Assembly: GCA_028710495.1 (NCBI GenBank)
Contig: JAQUST010000008.1
Coordinates: forward strand, 17,009-55,319
Source of the DNA: Clostridia bacterium
GTDB lineage: Bacteria; Bacillota; Clostridia; Christensenellales; CAG-917
DNA: 38,311 bases
Reading direction: 5' to 3'
Position 1 is the first letter of the stretch. Each line of letters opens with the position of its first letter. Made by a program: the position numbers and the translations under genes. The notes below the pieces were generated by a model. The model was not told the origin of the DNA, did not search any database, and was given only the letters and a program-made list of their open reading frames with translations. Below are positions 6,621 through 38,234 of this stretch, piece after piece.

Positions 6621-6813
6621 AAAAAAAATCCCGCGCATCCGTGTGAGTGAAAATTTTTAAACCTGCATTTGCAGGGTGGGTTTATGGCTATCGGTTATCG
6701 CTGTCTTCCACTGATTATCTGAGGCCTGACATTAAATTCCGAACACGCCATCCCGTATTAAAAATTTGTGGTTCAAAATGTATCACCATCACGAGAATAG
6801 CAGGATTTTTTTT
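6621..6813 (-). ncRNA. ssrS: 6S RNA (ssrS) candidate
   Basis: About 193 nt on the minus strand; closing stem AAAAAAAATCCTGC...GCGCGGGATTTTTTTT; 'GATACATTTTGAACC' and an overall long interrupted hairpin resembling Firmicutes 6S RNA; T-rich 3' end. Not confirmed with a covariance model. Confidence 0.7.
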
Positions 6814-22489: not shown

Positions 22490-25400
22490 ATGTTGAAAAA
22501 GAGATTGGCAGTTGTAACTGCATTTATTATTATATGTTTACTTATGATAACTTTAGGCGCGTGCAACGGGTATAAAGTGCATATTCTATTCAATAGTAAT
22601 GGTGGAGATGCAGTTTCTTCTGTGGAAATAAATGAAGACGGAAATACTGTTTTTCCTACTAATCCAACAAAAGACGGTTATATATTTGATGGCTGGTATT
22701 ATGATAACAATGTTTGGTCAAATCCTTGTGTTAGCAATCAGCTTTCAGGCAAACTCGATGATTTTGTAGTATATGCAAAATGGGTTATGTGCGGATTTAC
22801 ATTTACTCAAGTCAATACTTCCTATGCGGTCACAAATTATACAGGCACTAACAATTACGCAGAAATACCGTCACAATACAAAGGACTTCCTGTCACAACT
22901 ATTGCAAGTGATGCTTTCAGAAATAACGATTCGCTGTTGAGCGTTGTACTTCCTAGAAGCGTTGCAACTATACAAATCGGCGCGTTTAATGATTGTAATT
23001 CGGTTACATTACTTTGCGTTACTACAACAAAACCGAGCGGCTGGAATACAAACTGGAATATTGACAGCAGACCTGTTGTTTGGGATTGCGAGAATAAAAC
23101 CGTTGCTGATGATGGTTATACATATTTCACCGGTGATGATGGCAATCGCTATGCAATTTCTGGCGATGAAGTTAAATTTGTAAGATATATGGGCAATTCT
23201 TCTTCATATACTGTTCCGCAAGCAATTAATTATAATTCGATATTGTATCTTGTTACGATGATAGACTCATTTTCATTCGCGAATTATTCAAATATGACAA
23301 GCATTAGCTTACCCTCGTCAGTCAAAACTATTGGCGCATCTGCTTTTTCGAATTGCACACTTCTTAATTCATTCAACATTACCCAAAACATAACAACAAT
23401 AGAAAAATATGCATTCAATAATTGTGAATCGCTTGTTGATATTTTGATACCATCGACTGTGACAACTATTGGGTCTGAGGCATTTTATAATTGTTCTGCT
23501 TTGACTATTTATTGCAAGAGCATTTCCAAACCGAACGGTTGGCACGAATACTGGGCAATTTATTCTGAAAGCCGTCGTGACAAGCCAGTTTATTGGGGCA
23601 TTGACAGCACAAAAAACTTCCTAGAACAAAATGATTTGCAATATGTCATATTAAACGGAAGCGCGACTGTTTCAAAATATGTCGGTAATGATACATCAGT
23701 TACTATTCCTTCAAGCATTATGATAGGGAGCATACCTTATAATGTAGACACTATTGGCGATGAAGCATTTGCTTTCAATAATTCAGTTGAAAGTATTGTA
23801 GTTCCGGAAAGCATTTCTACAATCGGATTTGCATCATTTGCGAATTGCGCCTCACTAAACGATATAAATATTTCTGCAAGCATTGTTAGCATCGGAGCAA
23901 ATGCATATTCAAATTGCGATGCTTTGACAAGTATATTGATACCTGCAGGTGTGACTTATATTGGCGCGGATATCTTTAACGGCTCGGACAATGTTGTCAT
24001 AAACTGCGAAGTTGGAACAAAACGCGGCGGGTGGCGTTATGACTGGGATTACGAAAACGGAGCTCCTTCGACAAGAACTGTCAATTGGGGTTGCAACAAT
24101 ATTACAAATAATGATAAGTATAACTATGTTGTCCACAACAATGAAGTTTATTTGACAAGATACAAAGGTTCATCTTCACAAGTAGTTGTGCCTGAACAAA
24201 TTGATGGTAAAAATGTGGTTTCTTTCGGTAATATTTTTCAAGAGAATACAACACTTTCAAGTATAGTTATTCCAGAGACAATTTTAAGAATAAGCGACTA
24301 TGCTTTTTATAAATGTTTTTCATTGATAAGTGTTGACTTGCCTGCAAGTATTGTTAGCATTGGAGAATATGCTTTTGCTGGAACTGCTGAAGCTGGGGAA
24401 AATATGGCACTAGAGAGTATTTATTTGTCATATGAAATTAACCTTGTGTCTATTGGAAACAATGCCTTTGCATATTGCACTGAGCTTGCTTCATTCAATA
24501 TGCCTACTTCAACATACAGTATTGGCGAAGAAGCTTTCTATGAATGCACATCACTCTCAAATATAGTTTTACGAAATAACGTTACGAATGTGGGAATAAA
24601 CGCTTTTTATAATTGCAATGCGATAACAATTTATTGTGAATTGGCAAATGAGGAACTTACACCCGCAGGTTGGTTGACATTGTGGAAAAATACGGGTGAT
24701 GCTGAAAATCCTCTTAATATTTTGTGGAATCAAGATACTGATCAAAGCTATTCAGTCAAATATTATTATCAAAATATTGAAGATGATTCATATACTCTAA
24801 ACAACTCAGATTTGAGAGTCGGAGCAGTAGGTTCAACTGTTGTTACAACGGCAAGAATGATAACGCATTTCACTTTCATGCCTGAACTTAGCACATTGAA
24901 TGGAATGATTGTTATTGGAGGGACACTTGAGTTATCGTTGTACTATTCAAGAAATTACTACACAATTACTTTTGAATCGTCACTTGGAAGTCTTGAAAGC
25001 GGTGAGGAAACACAAACTGTCAAATATGGAGCAAGCGTTACTGTTCCAACATATTTAAGGACTGGTTATAGCATTGATGGATGGTCATCGGCTACAACTA
25101 TGATTTCAGAATCAAAAATTATCAACCCCGTTTGGACTCCTAACACCGATACGGCTTATGTTGTTGAGTATTATTTTCAAAATATAGAGGATGACAGTTA
25201 TTCTATAGATAATTTATTGACTGAAAATTTTGTTGGCACTACAGATGAAATTGCTTATGTCACTCCTGCATTCCATTCACATTTTACTTTGAATGAGAAT
25301 GTCAGCTCATTAGAAGGAACTATTCTTGCTGATGGTACTCAAGTGCTGAAAATATACTACACTCGAGATAAATATACTGTTTCATTTATTGCAAACGGCG

Positions 25401-28315
25401 GTACATTGCAGAGTGGCGAAGAAACGCATACAGTTAAATATGGTTCAGATGTTGAAGCTCCTTTGTATTCAAGAGCGGGCTACACTCAAAATGGTTGGAG
25501 CGTTGAATTCACAGCGATTGAAGAAAATCTTGAAATTTTAGCAATTTGGGAAGCTAATACCGACACAAGCTATCAAGTTAAATATTATTTTCAAAATATT
25601 GATGACAATAATTACACTGTAAATGATACATTAAATGAAAGTTGTTTTGGTACAACTGATACTTTGGCTATCGTTGAAGAACCCGCAACTTTTGAACATT
25701 TCACTTTTAATACGGAAGTGTCAGTTGTTTCCGCAAACATAAACGGAGATGGAAACCTGGTTCTTGCTTTATACTATAATAGAGATACCTACACAGTTGC
25801 TTTCAGTGGAAACGGCGGCACTTTATTAGGTGGCAATGCAACGCAAAGTATCAGATATGGTTCTGACGCCGAAGCTCCGTCATATTCAAGAGCAGGATAC
25901 ACTCAGATTGACTGGAGTGCCGATTTCACTGCAGTAGAAACCGACCTTTCAGTCCAGGCGAATTGGGAAGCGAACATCAATACTGCGTATGTTGTGAAGT
26001 ATTATTTTGAAAACTTATCAGATACGGCTTATACTGCCGATGAAGCATTGACACAAAATTTGACAGGAACTACCGACACTTTGGCAAGTATTGAAACTCC
26101 GTCAGCTATTGAACATTATGTTTTCCAGAATGCAATTTCGCTATTGCAGGGCAATATCAATGGAAATGGAACGCTACAACTTACGGTGTATTATAAAAGA
26201 GAAACATATTCTGTTACATTCTCGGCAAACGGTGGATATCACATCCTAGGTTTCGAGACGCAAACAGTAAAATATGAAGCAAATGCATTCAATGTCAATT
26301 ATGCAAAGTCTGGCTATACTCAAGATGGATGGACAGTTCCAATCACATATATAACTGAAAATATAGAAACTATGCCAAATTGGATTGCAAATGACAATGA
26401 AGTTGTGTTTAACAAAAACGGTGGGACAGGCATTATGTCCAATCTGGTCATTAAAACCAACGAAAGTGCAAATCTCACAATAAATAGCTACACAAGAGAA
26501 GGTTATACTTTTGGCGGTTGGGCGACTTCTTCGACTGGTGCTAAGGCATATGATGACGAAGCGCTTTATGAAATGGGCACTGCTAGCACTAACAATATAT
26601 ACGCTGTGTGGAATGTTATTGCTTATTACGCAACTTACAATTTGAATGGCGGTACTCTTGCAACAACAAATCCAAGTACATTTAACGTGGCTAGCGGCAC
26701 ATTGCCATTGTATTCACCGACTAAACGCGGATATACATTTGGTGGTTGGTATGATAATATTAGTTTGACAGGAAGCACATACACGACAATTTCCAGTGGT
26801 TCAATTGGCAATAAAGAATTCTTTGCTAAGTGGGTAGCTGATATATATACTATAAACTATGTTTTGAATGGTGGAGACAACAACACTTCAAATCCAAGTA
26901 GTTATACAATAGAAGATAGCAATATAACCTTACTTGACCCGACTGTAGCAGATTGCACATTTGTCGGCTGGTATGATGCAAATAGTGTATATGGCAACAA
27001 AGTCACAACAATAAAGCCAACTTTGCTTGCAAACTACACGCTTTATGCAATATGGAAATATGAAACAGAAGGAATTGAATATGTTTTGGCGAACGGTGTG
27101 GCTATTGTCTCAGGCTACACGGGCGAAGGCGGCGCAGTTGCGATACTTTCAAGTATAACTATTGGCAGTACAGTATTTTTGGTGCCAACTATTGGTGATT
27201 ATGCATTCAGCGGGAAATCCACAATCACTAATCTCTCTATTGCTGAAGGTATTACTTCAATAGGAATAAACGCATTTGATAATTGTACATCACTCACATC
27301 AATTTCAATTCCATCGACAGTGACAAGCATTGGAGATTGGGCATTTTACGGATGTAGCGCATTGAAGAGCGCAATTATTCCAAGTTCTGTCTCGAGTATG
27401 GGAGAGTGGGCATTCGCATATTGTTCATCTATGATTGCTTATTGCGGTGCGAATTCAATTCCAAGCGAATGGGATACGTACTGGAATTATTATTCAACAA
27501 ACGTTGCACATTGGGGTATCAACACAACAAACTTTATTGAATCAAACGGCTTGCAATTTGTCGTCGTAAACGGAAACGCAATTTTCACAAGATACACCGG
27601 AAACGGTACATCGGTGACAGTTCCAAGCTCAATGACAATTGCTGCTACCAATTATAATGTTACAAAAGTTGGTATGTGGGCATTTGCAAATTGTACAACA
27701 TTGACTTCCATCTCAATTCCAAGTTCCGTGACTTCCATAGAAGGACAGGCTTTGATTGGATGTTCTTCACTTACTACTTTGAATATTCCATTTGTTGGAA
27801 CAAGCAGAGCATCAACTGGAAATAGCGCTTTGTTTGGTTATATATTTGGCTGGACAGCCTTTAGCAATTCTACAGAAACTACTCAAACTTATAGAAGTGG
27901 CTACACAACGAATTTCTATATCCCGACATCGCTCACAACAGTCAACATCGAAAATGAAACAATTCTTAAGTATGGCGCGTTCTCAGGTTGTTCTACACTT
28001 GCAAGCGTGACAGTTGGCTCAGTATTGACACAAATTTCTGATTACGCTTTCTCAGGTTGTACGGGACTTAGCAATTATACTGTGGTTGGAAATGATTTAG
28101 TTCTAGACAAAATAGGTGAATATGCATTTGAAAATTGCTCAAATCTTAGCACGATATTGATTTCAGAAAGTGTGGCGACAATTGGTGAGTGCGCATTTGA
28201 CGGTTGCTCATCGTTGACAATAACTTGTGAAATTCTTGAGGAAAACATCCCTGTAGGGTGGGATGCTAGTTGGAATATTGACAACTGCACAGTGGTTTGG
28301 GGAGAAGTTATCTAA
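22490..28315 (+). CDS. Giant surface lipoprotein: BspA-type leucine-rich repeats (LRR_5) plus InlB B-repeat-like (Flg_new) and ~137-aa composite repeats
   Basis: Lipobox MITLGAC; many LRR_5 units (IGDEAFAFNNSVESIVVPESISTIGFASFANC...); InlB-type units (VTFSANGG...GYTxxGW...); RBS agggagataatg. Confidence 0.9.
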   Translation: MLKKRLAVVTAFIIICLLMITLGACNGYKVHILFNSNGGDAVSSVEINEDGNTVFPTNPTKDGYIFDGWYYDNNVWSNPCVSNQLSGKLDDFVVYAKWVMCGFTFTQVNTSYAVTNYTGTNNYAEIPSQYKGLPVTTIASDAFRNNDSLLSVVLPRSVATIQIGAFNDCNSVTLLCVTTTKPSGWNTNWNIDSRPVVWDCENKTVADDGYTYFTGDDGNRYAISGDEVKFVRYMGNSSSYTVPQAINYNSILYLVTMIDSFSFANYSNMTSISLPSSVKTIGASAFSNCTLLNSFNITQNITTIEKYAFNNCESLVDILIPSTVTTIGSEAFYNCSALTIYCKSISKPNGWHEYWAIYSESRRDKPVYWGIDSTKNFLEQNDLQYVILNGSATVSKYVGNDTSVTIPSSIMIGSIPYNVDTIGDEAFAFNNSVESIVVPESISTIGFASFANCASLNDINISASIVSIGANAYSNCDALTSILIPAGVTYIGADIFNGSDNVVINCEVGTKRGGWRYDWDYENGAPSTRTVNWGCNNITNNDKYNYVVHNNEVYLTRYKGSSSQVVVPEQIDGKNVVSFGNIFQENTTLSSIVIPETILRISDYAFYKCFSLISVDLPASIVSIGEYAFAGTAEAGENMALESIYLSYEINLVSIGNNAFAYCTELASFNMPTSTYSIGEEAFYECTSLSNIVLRNNVTNVGINAFYNCNAITIYCELANEELTPAGWLTLWKNTGDAENPLNILWNQDTDQSYSVKYYYQNIEDDSYTLNNSDLRVGAVGSTVVTTARMITHFTFMPELSTLNGMIVIGGTLELSLYYSRNYYTITFESSLGSLESGEETQTVKYGASVTVPTYLRTGYSIDGWSSATTMISESKIINPVWTPNTDTAYVVEYYFQNIEDDSYSIDNLLTENFVGTTDEIAYVTPAFHSHFTLNENVSSLEGTILADGTQVLKIYYTRDKYTVSFIANGGTLQSGEETHTVKYGSDVEAPLYSRAGYTQNGWSVEFTAIEENLEILAIWEANTDTSYQVKYYFQNIDDNNYTVNDTLNESCFGTTDTLAIVEEPATFEHFTFNTEVSVVSANINGDGNLVLALYYNRDTYTVAFSGNGGTLLGGNATQSIRYGSDAEAPSYSRAGYTQIDWSADFTAVETDLSVQANWEANINTAYVVKYYFENLSDTAYTADEALTQNLTGTTDTLASIETPSAIEHYVFQNAISLLQGNINGNGTLQLTVYYKRETYSVTFSANGGYHILGFETQTVKYEANAFNVNYAKSGYTQDGWTVPITYITENIETMPNWIANDNEVVFNKNGGTGIMSNLVIKTNESANLTINSYTREGYTFGGWATSSTGAKAYDDEALYEMGTASTNNIYAVWNVIAYYATYNLNGGTLATTNPSTFNVASGTLPLYSPTKRGYTFGGWYDNISLTGSTYTTISSGSIGNKEFFAKWVADIYTINYVLNGGDNNTSNPSSYTIEDSNITLLDPTVADCTFVGWYDANSVYGNKVTTIKPTLLANYTLYAIWKYETEGIEYVLANGVAIVSGYTGEGGAVAILSSITIGSTVFLVPTIGDYAFSGKSTITNLSIAEGITSIGINAFDNCTSLTSISIPSTVTSIGDWAFYGCSALKSAIIPSSVSSMGEWAFAYCSSMIAYCGANSIPSEWDTYWNYYSTNVAHWGINTTNFIESNGLQFVVVNGNAIFTRYTGNGTSVTVPSSMTIAATNYNVTKVGMWAFANCTTLTSISIPSSVTSIEGQALIGCSSLTTLNIPFVGTSRASTGNSALFGYIFGWTAFSNSTETTQTYRSGYTTNFYIPTSLTTVNIENETILKYGAFSGCSTLASVTVGSVLTQISDYAFSGCTGLSNYTVVGNDLVLDKIGEYAFENCSNLSTILISESVATIGECAFDGCSSLTITCEILEENIPVGWDASWNIDNCTVVWGEVI
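24740..26400 (+). repeat. Four consecutive ~137-aa coding repeats inside the giant lipoprotein
   Basis: Each: (S/T)xYxVxYY(Y/F)xN(I/L)xDxxY...GTTDxxA...HFTF...YYxRxxYxVxFxxNGG...GYTxxGWS...W. Confidence 0.85.
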
Positions 28316-28645: not shown

Positions 28646-31048
28646 CTATTCTGCTTGTTTTTTCAGCCTGCTTGTCACAATAAAAATTGCAAGTGCAACA
28701 ACGGCTGTTACGCAAGATATTACAAGCGCAATTATTTGTGCAGTTGTGAGTCCGCCCATTTTAATTTCATTTGCTAAAACATAGCCGACAATACTTCCGC
28801 ATTTTACCTTTATATAACCTTCATAAGTTGATTCATCAAGCACTTGCAACTCTGTTCCGTCAGTCACAGAGTCAAGGACACTTGAGTCTGAATCGGGAAG
28901 AGCGTATATTGAAACACGCTCACCAATGCGAGAAGCCTTTGCCTTTCCATAAACGGCATAACCTTCAATTAGAGCAGAACCGTTATTGTCTGTGACATCT
29001 GTTGCTATTATATAGCCTATTTGATTTGAATTGTATTTGACCATAAACCAATTCGAGGGATTTGTGAAATTTGAAACATTGCCTATAATTTCAAGAACAG
29101 TGCCTTTCTCAACAATCGTTGACGGAGTGGACAAACTATTGAGAGGGTAAAGATATATCTTGCATAGCGGGTGCAGTGTTTTTACATTTGTTGTCACAGG
29201 CAATTCTTGCGTTGTTTCAGTCAAATCCTCTTTGTTGATATAGCCTATTTTTGTACCGTATATTGCATAAACAAAATTTGCGTTTTCACTTGTATCTTCA
29301 AAGCATACAACAATAGTGTTTACTTCTACTTCTTCAATGTACTCATAGTTTTTAGGGTCTAACAAAAAGAAAGTTGTCTTATTTGTTTCTGCCGTAAAAA
29401 TTTGTGTAGATGCGTTGATTTGAGGCGATGTTGTCGGCGTGAAGCTCGAACTGGTTGCCGGTGCAAAGATTGATGTGAATGCGACAAAACTTTCACTTGT
29501 GGCAAAATAGAGCCTTCCGTCATCTCCAATTGAAAGTGCAGTCGGAGTGCCGTTTGAAACAGTTTCGTGCATAAGTTGATTTTCAGTTGAGCTTTGGTAT
29601 GTTCCCAAGCTACGAATATTTTCTACTAATTTTCCGCTTGTGGTGATAGCATATAAATTGCCAACATAATCAATATCAATATCGGCAACAGAGTTTTCCG
29701 AAAAAGTGAGTGGAGTGCTGATATCTTTTCCTTCTTCGTTGAAAGCTTTTACGGTGGTGGATGTCAAGACATACAAAATATTCCCGTTGGCAGATGCTGC
29801 AAGTTTTACAGCATCATTGATAGATTTGAAAACCTTAAATGTGCCATCTTCCAAAACGAAGACAGCGTTTGAAGTCAAAGCATAAAGCTTGTCAGTGGTT
29901 GCAACTGAAAGTATAGTATCTGAAACTGAAAGAGAGATTTCATATTCAATTTCTCCGTTTTTAACGAAAGATACCCTGTTTTGAGAGGCAACATAAACAC
30001 CATTTGCACCTTGAGCAATACTTGTTGGAGCGGTAAAGGGAATTGTCATCATAGCTGTGCTTTCGTTTGTTTTTGTCAATGTAACGAGTCGGTTGTTTTC
30101 GGTGTCGGCAATATATGTTGTGTTTTCAATTTTGAGGATGTCTGAAGGTGACGACAAGTGTGTGTTGTCATTCGATTTCGATGCAATTGTGCGATCTAAT
30201 TGGAAGCTTACTGTTTGACTTGCGGTGAGAATTGAGTAGCAATAAACCGCAGTTGAGGCTTTGTTCAAAACATAAATTTTACTTTCGCTTGCTATCATAG
30301 TTTTTATTTCATAATCAAATGACTGAGTTCCGATAAAAGCTCCACCGATTGAATAAATTGATACTGTTGTCATATTGTTCCGCGAATAGGCGACATAAAT
30401 GTAATTATCAACTGAGAAGTGAGTGTAATTTTCATCGCGCTGTAGAATTTCGGTTTGCGAGCAAGAATTTAAAGCATCGATTGCTTGAACTACAAACTTG
30501 TTGATTGAGTTTGAGTAATCTATTGAGTATAGTTTTGTGTTTTTTGAGGCTATAGTTGAGTCAATCAAAGCAGTGCTATTGGTGGTTGCAACAAAATTGA
30601 AGTCAGAACTATATGCACGCATAGCTCCAAAATCATTTACGGCGAATAGTGTGTTTCCGTTTGAATACAATATATAATTGTCAGGTGCTCCAACTAATTC
30701 TGCTTGTCCAAGACTCGATTTTGTCGTTAAATCAAATTGTTCATAACCTAAAGAGTTTTTAGCAAAAATATAGTCGCCGAAAACAACAAGCGAGGTTGCT
30801 TCATTGCAAATTAAAACATAACTAGACTCGCCAAAAACTGTTATGCGGTCAATGGTTGGATTATAAATCGCAAGCGTTGATGAGTCTGTTGCGAGAATAG
30901 AATTTGTATCAATTTGGTAGTAGTTTTCAGTTGGGAAAATCAACTCAAAATTCGAAGTCGTTGGGAATGCAAAAGTCGCACCGATTGCGCAGCTTAGCGT
31001 GCATACTGCTATCAGCAAAATTAAGCTTAAAAAAGTCGCTTTGCGCAT
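28646..31048 (-). CDS. Membrane-anchored extracytoplasmic protein with NHL/beta-propeller-like repeats and SH3b-like domains
   Basis: N-terminal signal segment; 'ILKIENTTYIADTENNRLVTL' NHL-like unit; C-terminal SH3b-like segments (GTVLEIIGN...WFMVKYNSNQIGYI; GERVSIYALPDSDSSVLDSVTDGTELQVL...YIKVKCGSIVGYV); C-terminal TM IIALVISCVTAVVALAIFIVTSRLKK. Confidence 0.7.
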   Translation of the reverse strand: MRKATFLSLILLIAVCTLSCAIGATFAFPTTSNFELIFPTENYYQIDTNSILATDSSTLAIYNPTIDRITVFGESSYVLICNEATSLVVFGDYIFAKNSLGYEQFDLTTKSSLGQAELVGAPDNYILYSNGNTLFAVNDFGAMRAYSSDFNFVATTNSTALIDSTIASKNTKLYSIDYSNSINKFVVQAIDALNSCSQTEILQRDENYTHFSVDNYIYVAYSRNNMTTVSIYSIGGAFIGTQSFDYEIKTMIASESKIYVLNKASTAVYCYSILTASQTVSFQLDRTIASKSNDNTHLSSPSDILKIENTTYIADTENNRLVTLTKTNESTAMMTIPFTAPTSIAQGANGVYVASQNRVSFVKNGEIEYEISLSVSDTILSVATTDKLYALTSNAVFVLEDGTFKVFKSINDAVKLAASANGNILYVLTSTTVKAFNEEGKDISTPLTFSENSVADIDIDYVGNLYAITTSGKLVENIRSLGTYQSSTENQLMHETVSNGTPTALSIGDDGRLYFATSESFVAFTSIFAPATSSSFTPTTSPQINASTQIFTAETNKTTFFLLDPKNYEYIEEVEVNTIVVCFEDTSENANFVYAIYGTKIGYINKEDLTETTQELPVTTNVKTLHPLCKIYLYPLNSLSTPSTIVEKGTVLEIIGNVSNFTNPSNWFMVKYNSNQIGYIIATDVTDNNGSALIEGYAVYGKAKASRIGERVSIYALPDSDSSVLDSVTDGTELQVLDESTYEGYIKVKCGSIVGYVLANEIKMGGLTTAQIIALVISCVTAVVALAIFIVTSRLKKQAE

Positions 31049-31175
31049 AAATTCTCCTTAGTTATTTCTTAATTATACATTAAAAATCAATATGCAGTCA
31101 AGATTTTGTCCTTAAAACTAATATATTGTTGCAAACACAAGGTGTAGTGTGCTAAAATACACAAAGGAGACATAT

Positions 31176-32159
31176 ATGGCGGACAGAAAATTTTACAGAC
31201 ACAACGGGAATAAAGCAAAATCCACTTCACAAAAGCAAATAGTACAAAATCCTGAAGCGATGAAAATAAGCATTGCTGATTTGTTATTGTCCGAATCAAC
31301 GACTTCTTTGCTTGATAAAAATAATATAAAAAATGCTGCCGAACTTTGTATTCGAACTGAAAAAGATATGTACAAAATTCAGACGCTGAATAAAAGAGTT
31401 TTGGTTGAGATTTCGAATGCACTAAAAAAACATAATCTTGCATTCAGACCTTTTGAAGCACCTATAAAACAGGGTGAAGCAGTTGCCGAACAAAAGGCTG
31501 CTATAAAAACGCCTCTTGGTCGTAAAAATGAAGCAAAGCTAAGCAATGATTCAAATCAAGCTAACAATAATACAAAAAATTTACGCACTGAGAAAATAAA
31601 TACAAAAAATAATAAGTCAGTTAATATGAAAACAGATACAAACGAGACTATTGATTCAATATATCCATCAGGAAAAATCGATTTTCTTTCTTCAAGACAA
31701 AGCGATAAAAATAAAATAGATTTAAACAAAGACCAACAAAAAAGAGTTAAAGAACCTGTTATCACTAAGCCTCTACCAGTTGAAGAATGGAGAAAAATTC
31801 AAAGAGCTGGCAAGTGGGGCTTTTTTGATGGAATGAAAACTGTTATCAATCCTGAGTATGATGAGGTGTTCCATTTCAAAGAGGGCTTGGCATGTGTGGA
31901 ACTGAATGAAAAATGTGGATATATTGACAGCCAAAATAATATTGTAATTCCTATTGAATACGAAACAGCGTTTAGTTTTTCTGATGAGCTTGCAGTTGTT
32001 GTTACAAATGGGAAGTGCGGTTATATTAACAAAGAAAACGAACTTGTGTTTCCGTGTGTATACGATGCTGCTGCTCCGTTTGAAGAAGGGGTTGCGCGTG
32101 TTAAGCAAGCGGGAAGATGGGGCTTTCTGTCAAAGGATGGCGCAATTCGCTGGAAATAA
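31176..32159 (+). CDS. RNA polymerase alpha-CTD-like domain fused to WG repeats
   Basis: ISIADLLLSESTTSLLDKNNIKNAAELCIRTEKDMYKIQTLNKRVLVEISNALKKHNLAF resembles RpoA CTD; C-terminal WG repeats GKWGFFDGMKTVINPEYDEVFHFKEGLACVELNEKCGYID..., GRWGFLSKDG. Start ATG 31176 after aaaggagac preferred over 31149. Confidence 0.75.
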   Translation: MADRKFYRHNGNKAKSTSQKQIVQNPEAMKISIADLLLSESTTSLLDKNNIKNAAELCIRTEKDMYKIQTLNKRVLVEISNALKKHNLAFRPFEAPIKQGEAVAEQKAAIKTPLGRKNEAKLSNDSNQANNNTKNLRTEKINTKNNKSVNMKTDTNETIDSIYPSGKIDFLSSRQSDKNKIDLNKDQQKRVKEPVITKPLPVEEWRKIQRAGKWGFFDGMKTVINPEYDEVFHFKEGLACVELNEKCGYIDSQNNIVIPIEYETAFSFSDELAVVVTNGKCGYINKENELVFPCVYDAAAPFEEGVARVKQAGRWGFLSKDGAIRWK

Positions 32160-32381: not shown

Positions 32382-32407
32382 AAAGCCGTCCAAACTTGGA
32401 CGGCTTT
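32382..32407 (-). terminator. Intrinsic (probably bidirectional) terminator between the alphaCTD-WG gene and rpsT
   Basis: AAAGCCGTCCAAACTTGGACGGCTTT; minus strand continues into TTTTT. Confidence 0.88.
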
Positions 32408-32833: not shown

Positions 32834-33739
32834 ATGAATAAAATGAGATTTTACAGTGATATGGCGCTTGATAGCTTCGAACAATCGCGCATAAATGAGT
32901 TGATTGAAAAAAAACAACTTTCTTCGGGCATAGTAAAAAGTTCAGTAAATTTGAAAAATGCGGAAATGGCGAAAAGCATTGGAAAAAAACAAGGCGTTTA
33001 TGTTACTTTTGAATGCACTAAACCATTTTTTGAAAGCTACCAAAGCAAAACAAATTTGATAAAAGCACTCTCATCAGCAGTCAAAGAAATGACTTTGAAT
33101 TTTGGCTCTACAAGGCCGTCAGTTTTGGTCGTGGGACTTGGCAATGAAGGTATGACAGCTGATGCGTTAGGTCCGATGACAGCCTCTAAAGTTATCGTTA
33201 CTCGACATATCATTGAAAGCGGTGAAGGAGGGAGAGACTATCGCTCAAAAGTTGCATCAATTTCTCCGAATGTCTTGGGAGAAACAGGCGTGCAATCATT
33301 CGATATTGTAAAAGGTGTCGTTGATGCGATAAAGCCTAATGTTGTTATTGCAATTGACACGCTTTGCACATCGAAATCTAAACGGTTATTTTCATCTTTT
33401 CAGCTTTCAACTGCAGGAATAGCACCTGCAAGCGGAGTGGGAGAAACACGAAAAGGCTTTGATTTTGCAACTCTTGGCGTACCGATTTTAGCAATTGGAG
33501 TGCCTCTTGTTGCAAACATAAGAGATATGATGCGTGAAATAATGAAAGAATATTGCGACAACGAAAACAGAGAGTTGAAAATTTCAACTCTCGAAAAGAT
33601 TGTCTATGAAAAATTGAGTGGAAACATAATTGTTGCGCCCAAAGAAATTGATTTTGTTGTAAGCGAATGCGCTGATGTTATTGCGGAGGCGATAAACCTT
33701 GCTTTTTGTGGTAAGCGTTCAAAAGCAACTCAAGAATAG
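32834..33739 (+). CDS. gpr: GPR endopeptidase (germination protease for small acid-soluble spore proteins)
   Basis: VLVVGLGNEGMTADALGPMTASKVIVTRHI, GETGVQSFDIVKGVVDAIKPNVVIAIDTLCTSK, GIAPASGVGETRKGF; adjacent to rpsT as in many spore-formers. Confidence 0.92.
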   Translation: MNKMRFYSDMALDSFEQSRINELIEKKQLSSGIVKSSVNLKNAEMAKSIGKKQGVYVTFECTKPFFESYQSKTNLIKALSSAVKEMTLNFGSTRPSVLVVGLGNEGMTADALGPMTASKVIVTRHIIESGEGGRDYRSKVASISPNVLGETGVQSFDIVKGVVDAIKPNVVIAIDTLCTSKSKRLFSSFQLSTAGIAPASGVGETRKGFDFATLGVPILAIGVPLVANIRDMMREIMKEYCDNENRELKISTLEKIVYEKLSGNIIVAPKEIDFVVSECADVIAEAINLAFCGKRSKATQE

Positions 33740-37966: not shown

Positions 37967-38234
37967 GCCGTGCTAAACGGGGAGCTAGCGGTGCCCTGTA
38001 AACCGCAAACCGCTATAGCGGTGTTGAAAGGCGCACCTAGGCTTTCTTTATGGAATGCCGGATTGAACAAGGAATGTCGATAGCAAGGTCTCGTGCAATA
38101 TCGTGCTGTGAACCGTGTCAGGGCTTGATCGCAGCAGCACTAAGCAGATTTCGGTGTGTGCCACGAGGAAGCTTTGAAGGAGTTACCTATTTGATTATCG
38201 ATTCGGTAAGGACTGTCGAAGTGCGTCGCACGGC
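37967..38234 (+). ncRNA. ffs: Signal recognition particle RNA, large (Bacillus-type)
   Basis: GCCGTGC...GCACGGC closing stem; GGGGAGCTAGCGGTGCCCTGTAAACCGCAAACCGCTATAGC Alu-domain block; GAACCGTGTCAGG...AGCAGCACTAAG domain IV. Confidence 0.93.

Follow-up and report, generated by a model that had tools for sequence, protein, structure and literature searches.

The gene at positions 31176-32159 of the plus strand of the window, by which we mean the whole 38,311-nucleotide stretch analysed here, encodes a protein of 327 amino acids in which what is, by sequence comparison, a former RNA polymerase alpha-CTD has been joined through a disordered linker to WG repeats. This fusion is a novel architecture built from known parts. 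Having lost its key DNA-reading residues, the domain probably serves a new purpose, and we put at roughly 0.45 the probability that the protein is a cytoplasmic tether whose basic half sits on nucleic acid or its machinery while its acidic WG half docks a partner. The relevant features are as follows:

28646-31048 (-), divergent neighbouring gene, predicted secreted and membrane-anchored protein with an SH3_3 domain and a C-terminal transmembrane (TM) helix (PF08239; neighbourhoods; family search)
31163-31169 (+), ribosome-binding site AAAGGAG, 6 nt 5′ of the ATG (sequence)
31176-32159 (+), coding sequence of the alpha-CTD-like/WG fusion, 327 aa (the open reading frame has an ATG and a ribosome-binding site, and 111 genomes contain an orthologue)
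31176-31262 (+), residues 1-29, MADRKFYRHNGNK..., forming a basic tail at the N-terminus (pLDDT low; positively charged in 98% of the 48 orthologues)
31263-31448 (+), RpoA alpha-CTD-like helix-hairpin-helix (HhH) domain, residues 30-91 (PF03118, PDB profile matches, AlphaFold, Foldseek)
31380-31403 (+), second hairpin, residues 69-76, QTLNKRVL (its K73/R74 form the conserved basic pair)
31449-31784 (+), Asn/Lys-rich disordered linker, residues 92-203 (charge count; pLDDT mostly below 60)
31785-32156 (+), WG-repeat domain, residues 204-327, all beta, acidic (PF14903; model pLDDT 97.7; partial beta-propeller-like matches)
32382-32407 (+), terminator-like hairpin 3′ of the fusion gene, 11 pairs and a T-rich tail (consensus match only)

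An alpha-CTD fold joined to WG repeats

As given in the first-pass annotation, the open reading frame begins with the ATG at 31176, behind a ribosome-binding site, and its stop codon ends at 32159. The candidate terminator hairpin suggests that the gene is transcribed on its own. Pfam family PF03118 (RNA_pol_A_CTD) matched residues 24-84 of the window protein (E 1.7e-6, 28.1 bits, cut-off 23.8) and, at E 0.01, 41 of 48 orthologues taken individually; the only NCBIfam models matching the N-terminal part of the fusion were those of rpoA, over their CTD part. A profile built from the 48 orthologues retrieved 51 PDB sequences (best E 8e-14), all of them RNA polymerase alpha, and a chance HhH resemblance was therefore ruled out. 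In an AlphaFold model of the fusion protein built with the 48 orthologues, residues 31-90 formed helices of the alpha-CTD type with a pLDDT of about 95-97, and Foldseek aligned the domain model with the alpha-CTDs of Bacillus subtilis (1z3e_B; TM 0.93 by target length, rmsd 1.0 Å) and Escherichia coli (1lb2_E; TM 0.90, 1.2 Å). The RpoA-CTD fold first proposed from the letters of the sequence is thus confirmed by Pfam, by the PDB profile and by structure; with significant profile matches and a well-modelled domain, neither an absence of RpoA-CTD/HhH matches nor a disordered N-terminal domain was encountered. Likewise, the domain had been described as detached from an RpoA NTD, and neither Pfam nor NCBIfam found an alpha-NTD in the fusion protein; nor did Pfam match Sigma70_r4 in it. 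The true rpoA gene of the same genome lies on another contig (G000:C2:14967) and its CTD, intact and canonical, is about 30% identical to the domain of the fusion. A third PF03118 match in this genome (G000:C30, 12 bits) fell below the cut-off, and a similar weak match in a relative (L196) lies in what appears by eye to be a DNA ligase sequence.

The linker is charged, as initially described, and predicted to be disordered, but its length in the window protein is 112 residues and not about 130; among the orthologues it is variable (median 81, range 31-151 residues). Beyond it, PF14903 (WG_beta_rep) matched the window protein three times (E 4e-34, 116.6 bits) and was present in all 48 orthologues. 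The WG domain comprises three full units and a half unit, which agrees with the three to four repeats counted earlier. Its AlphaFold pLDDT was about 98 in the full model, and a structure search with the domain alone returned partial matches to beta-propellers with TM scores by query reaching only about 0.6. At best, therefore, the predicted domain resembles part of a beta-propeller, its stacked sheets making up three and a half units that look like blades. Median identity of the orthologues to the window copy was 52% for the WG domain, 37% for the alpha-CTD-like domain and 17-22% for the linker and tail; the tail of many orthologues begins with MANKKFYYRNK.

A search for this domain architecture, proposed at the first pass, was made in 100 relatives and then in 396 genomes of the order, apparently Christensenellales, and found the combination of alpha-CTD and WG repeats in 111 of the 396, with one match each. 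These genomes belong to seven families of uncultured gut Clostridia with genomes of about 1.1-2.6 Mb, designated f1 (31 genomes), f5 (31), f24 (27), f16 (12), f13 (5), f9 (3) and f7 (2); none of the order's other families among the 396 genomes had the fusion gene. No full-length match outside the order was found in 391 genomes from the class or 399 from the phylum. A pattern scan of 84,980 species genomes yielded 59 loci; the records holding those with both domains bear the titles Clostridia, Clostridiales, Eubacteriales, Bacillota or uncultured bacteria, and in several cases Christensenella or Christensenellaceae, titles from which the order name used here is deduced. The WG proteins retrieved from other groups were devoid of an alpha-CTD-like domain. 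Conservation of the combination in seven bacterial families therefore rules out both a chance match and an assembly chimera. Nearly all orthologues come from metagenome-assembled genomes, and their conservation does not imply that the gene is essential. Nothing relevant to an alpha-CTD joined to WG repeats was found in the open-access literature.

Residues and charge of the domain relative to RpoA

The 48 fusion orthologues were compared with 21 RpoA CTDs, from the window genome and 20 relatives. Positions are numbered as in E. coli alpha, by alignment to the E. coli sequence, so that residues K73 and R74 of the fusion are taken to be equivalent to positions 297 and 298. The four positions R265, N268, G296 and S299 were invariant in the 21 RpoAs. 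In the fusion proteins, arginine was found at position 265 in only four of 48; position 268 was mostly E, A or K, position 299 was N, M, I or H, and position 296 was N in 30 and G in 12. DNA binding by the alpha-CTD depends critically on R265 and N268, and neither R265A nor N268A is viable as the sole copy of rpoA (PMC11434276). Judged from these alignments, the UP-element DNA-binding surface is lost from the predicted domain, and even backbone DNA contacts may have gone with the four residues. Of the initial interpretation, the alpha-CTD fold without an alpha-NTD, the charged disordered linker and the WG repeats thus stand, whereas the suggestion that the domain might act on UP elements as the polymerase alpha-CTD does is not sustained, its DNA-contact residues being gone.

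Other positions were retained. A basic residue (K/R) occupied the K297 position in 47 of the 48 fusions and the K298 position in all of them, the E302 position was E or D in 43, and positions 284-288 were kept as in RpoA (R 42/48, E 40/48, D/E 46/48). Position 261 was G in 26 of the 48 fusions versus D or E in 21/21 RpoAs. The median net charge of the domain was +3.5 in the fusions compared to 0 in the 21 RpoAs (nominal p 9e-8, a value that ignores relatedness). Over the 48 orthologues the protein is split by charge, the tail being positive in 98%, the domain in 90%, the linker in 94% and the WG domain in only 2%. By a crude hydropathy test, an N-terminal hydrophobic stretch was found in 0 of 51 fusion proteins and in 26 of 46 WG proteins that lack the domain; the fusion protein is therefore most likely cytoplasmic, and an exported WG protein was ruled out.

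A putative cytoplasmic tether and its alternatives

The tether reading takes as its basis the domain make-up, the predicted fold, the distribution, the residue loss, the charge split and the lack of a hydrophobic N-terminus, all of which were observed; from these we infer nucleic-acid association, partner docking and the tether role itself. The N-terminal half (tail, domain and linker) would associate with nucleic acid without reading its sequence, or with a nucleic-acid machine, making contact through the lysine/arginine hairpin, which is conserved, and through its basic, flexible arms. The alpha-CTD-derived domain would no longer read UP elements, and the acidic C-terminal WG domain would dock a protein partner. 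A basic hairpin that is conserved, together with a basic tail and linker, would fit such a nucleic-acid tether, and the protein may yet be the transcription or nucleoid adaptor suggested at the first pass. The reading is favoured by the homology to the RpoA alpha-CTD and its fold, by a charge split kept over 48 orthologues with a domain more basic than in the RpoAs, by the near-invariant basic pair of hairpin 2 and the E/D at the E302 equivalent, by the uniform lack of an N-terminal hydrophobic stretch, and by its occurrence, always as one copy, in genomes of this size range from seven families. Weighing against it, R265, N268, S299 and G296 are not kept, and basic disordered regions are common to cytoplasmic proteins of all kinds. 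HU is present in the window genome, which disfavours a replacement of HU by the fusion protein.

Retention of positions 284-288 bears on a different, rather unlikely, explanation, that of a transcription adaptor or decoy which competes with, or replaces, the RNA polymerase alpha-CTD at activators without UP contact. The 287 side of the alpha-CTD is the face used by activators, and the genome encodes one clear CRP-type HTH protein, but the 284-288 residues may be kept for folding, and position 261, on the sigma-contact side, is not kept. Spx is an alpha-CTD ligand in Bacillus; neither Spx nor any other Spx/ArsC-family match was found in the window genome (91% complete), which disfavours a Spx decoy.

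The gene neighbourhood bears on a third possibility. In the window, the SH3/TM gene is followed by the fusion gene and then by rpsT, gpr, murI-like and EF-G-like genes, which belong to an old cluster of the Firmicutes. In 35 of the loci examined (some representing the same genome twice), from f1, f5, f16 and f24, the SH3/TM gene adjoined the fusion gene, in divergent orientation in 27, upstream on the same strand in one and downstream on the same strand in seven. This adjacency suggests a link with the fusion protein, although such linkage can be ancestral. The HhH fold might accordingly serve as a compact interaction module in a pure protein-protein scaffold that connects the membrane with a partner in the cytoplasm, for instance through the SH3 neighbour. 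In keeping with this, the two genes are adjacent in three arrangements, and six of the seven fusion-bearing families have strong single-copy SH3/TM orthologues. By coordinates, however, adjacency holds in about 14 of 18 f5, 8 of 16 f24 and 4 of 9 f16 genomes and in none of f7 or f9; the family search detected no SH3/TM orthologue in f13, which has the fusion, and found weaker relatives in families without it. In addition, the SH3/TM protein would expose no more than a short basic tail to the cytoplasm, and we regard the scaffold as doubtful. A version joining both ideas, in which a captured alpha-CTD has been remade as a chromosome- or polymerase-associated scaffold linking the transcription machinery or nucleoid, via the acidic WG domain, to the membrane-anchored SH3 protein, strikes us as a long shot. 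That the N-terminal half (tail, hairpin domain and linker) binds RNA, ribosomal or otherwise, while the WG domain caps or recruits is improbable too, for although the tail resembles by eye the basic extensions of ribosomal proteins and the fusion gene lies near rpsT in several families, the rpsT-gpr neighbourhood may be mere inheritance and an RNA-binding signature was not found in the fusion protein.

Other features were noted along the way. In most f1 genomes the next gene downstream of the fusion encodes a Subtilase (Peptidase_S8) with a C-terminal TM-like stretch (L065:6760-8808 and its f1 relatives); this subtilase is absent from the window. The germination protease gene gpr (32834-33739, +) is present in a genome of 1.57 Mb, 91% complete. 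The window further contains a gene for a predicted surface protein of 1941 aa that carries BspA-type LRR_5 and Listeria-Bacteroides (Flg_new) repeats (22490-28315, +), a 6S RNA match beside a tRNA-Glu gene (6624-6809, -; 53.5 bits against a gathering score of 46.4) and a full-length Bacterial large SRP RNA (37968-38233, +; 164 bits).

Relation to known systems

The alpha-CTD belongs to the basic regulatory equipment of bacterial RNA polymerase. With the RpoA alpha-CTD (PF03118; 1z3e, 1lb2) the fusion shares the fold, the length, the hydrophobic core, positions 284-288, the basic 297/298 pair and E302; it differs in having no alpha-NTD, in not keeping R265, N268, G296 and S299, and in being more basic. 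With WG-repeat proteins (PF14903; L119, L121-L129, L132-L159) it has the repeat motif in common, but those retrieved lacked the alpha-CTD-like domain, and a hydrophobic N-terminus was present in more than half of them, whereas the fusion protein, with three and a half repeats, is most likely cytoplasmic. As a single gene with three separable parts and a frequent neighbour, it offers a defined target for finding the binding partners of cytoplasmic WG domains.

Alpha-CTDs outside RpoA also occur elsewhere in Clostridia, where a second match not belonging to the fusion family was present in about 8 of 147 genomes. These detached alpha-CTDs (L188, L189, L191-L194) are sporadic and without WG repeats, and three of the six annotated ones (L188, L192, L194) are paired with Sigma70_r4 in proteins of up to about 1090 aa that carry R265-like arginines. 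By eye, most detached alpha-CTDs keep an R265-like arginine and an N268-like asparagine, which the fusions do not; on this sequence evidence, the fusion family is thus a separate line of alpha-CTD reuse, one in which, across largely uncultured gut families, the fold was reused, the DNA-reading residues were dropped and WG repeats were joined to it.
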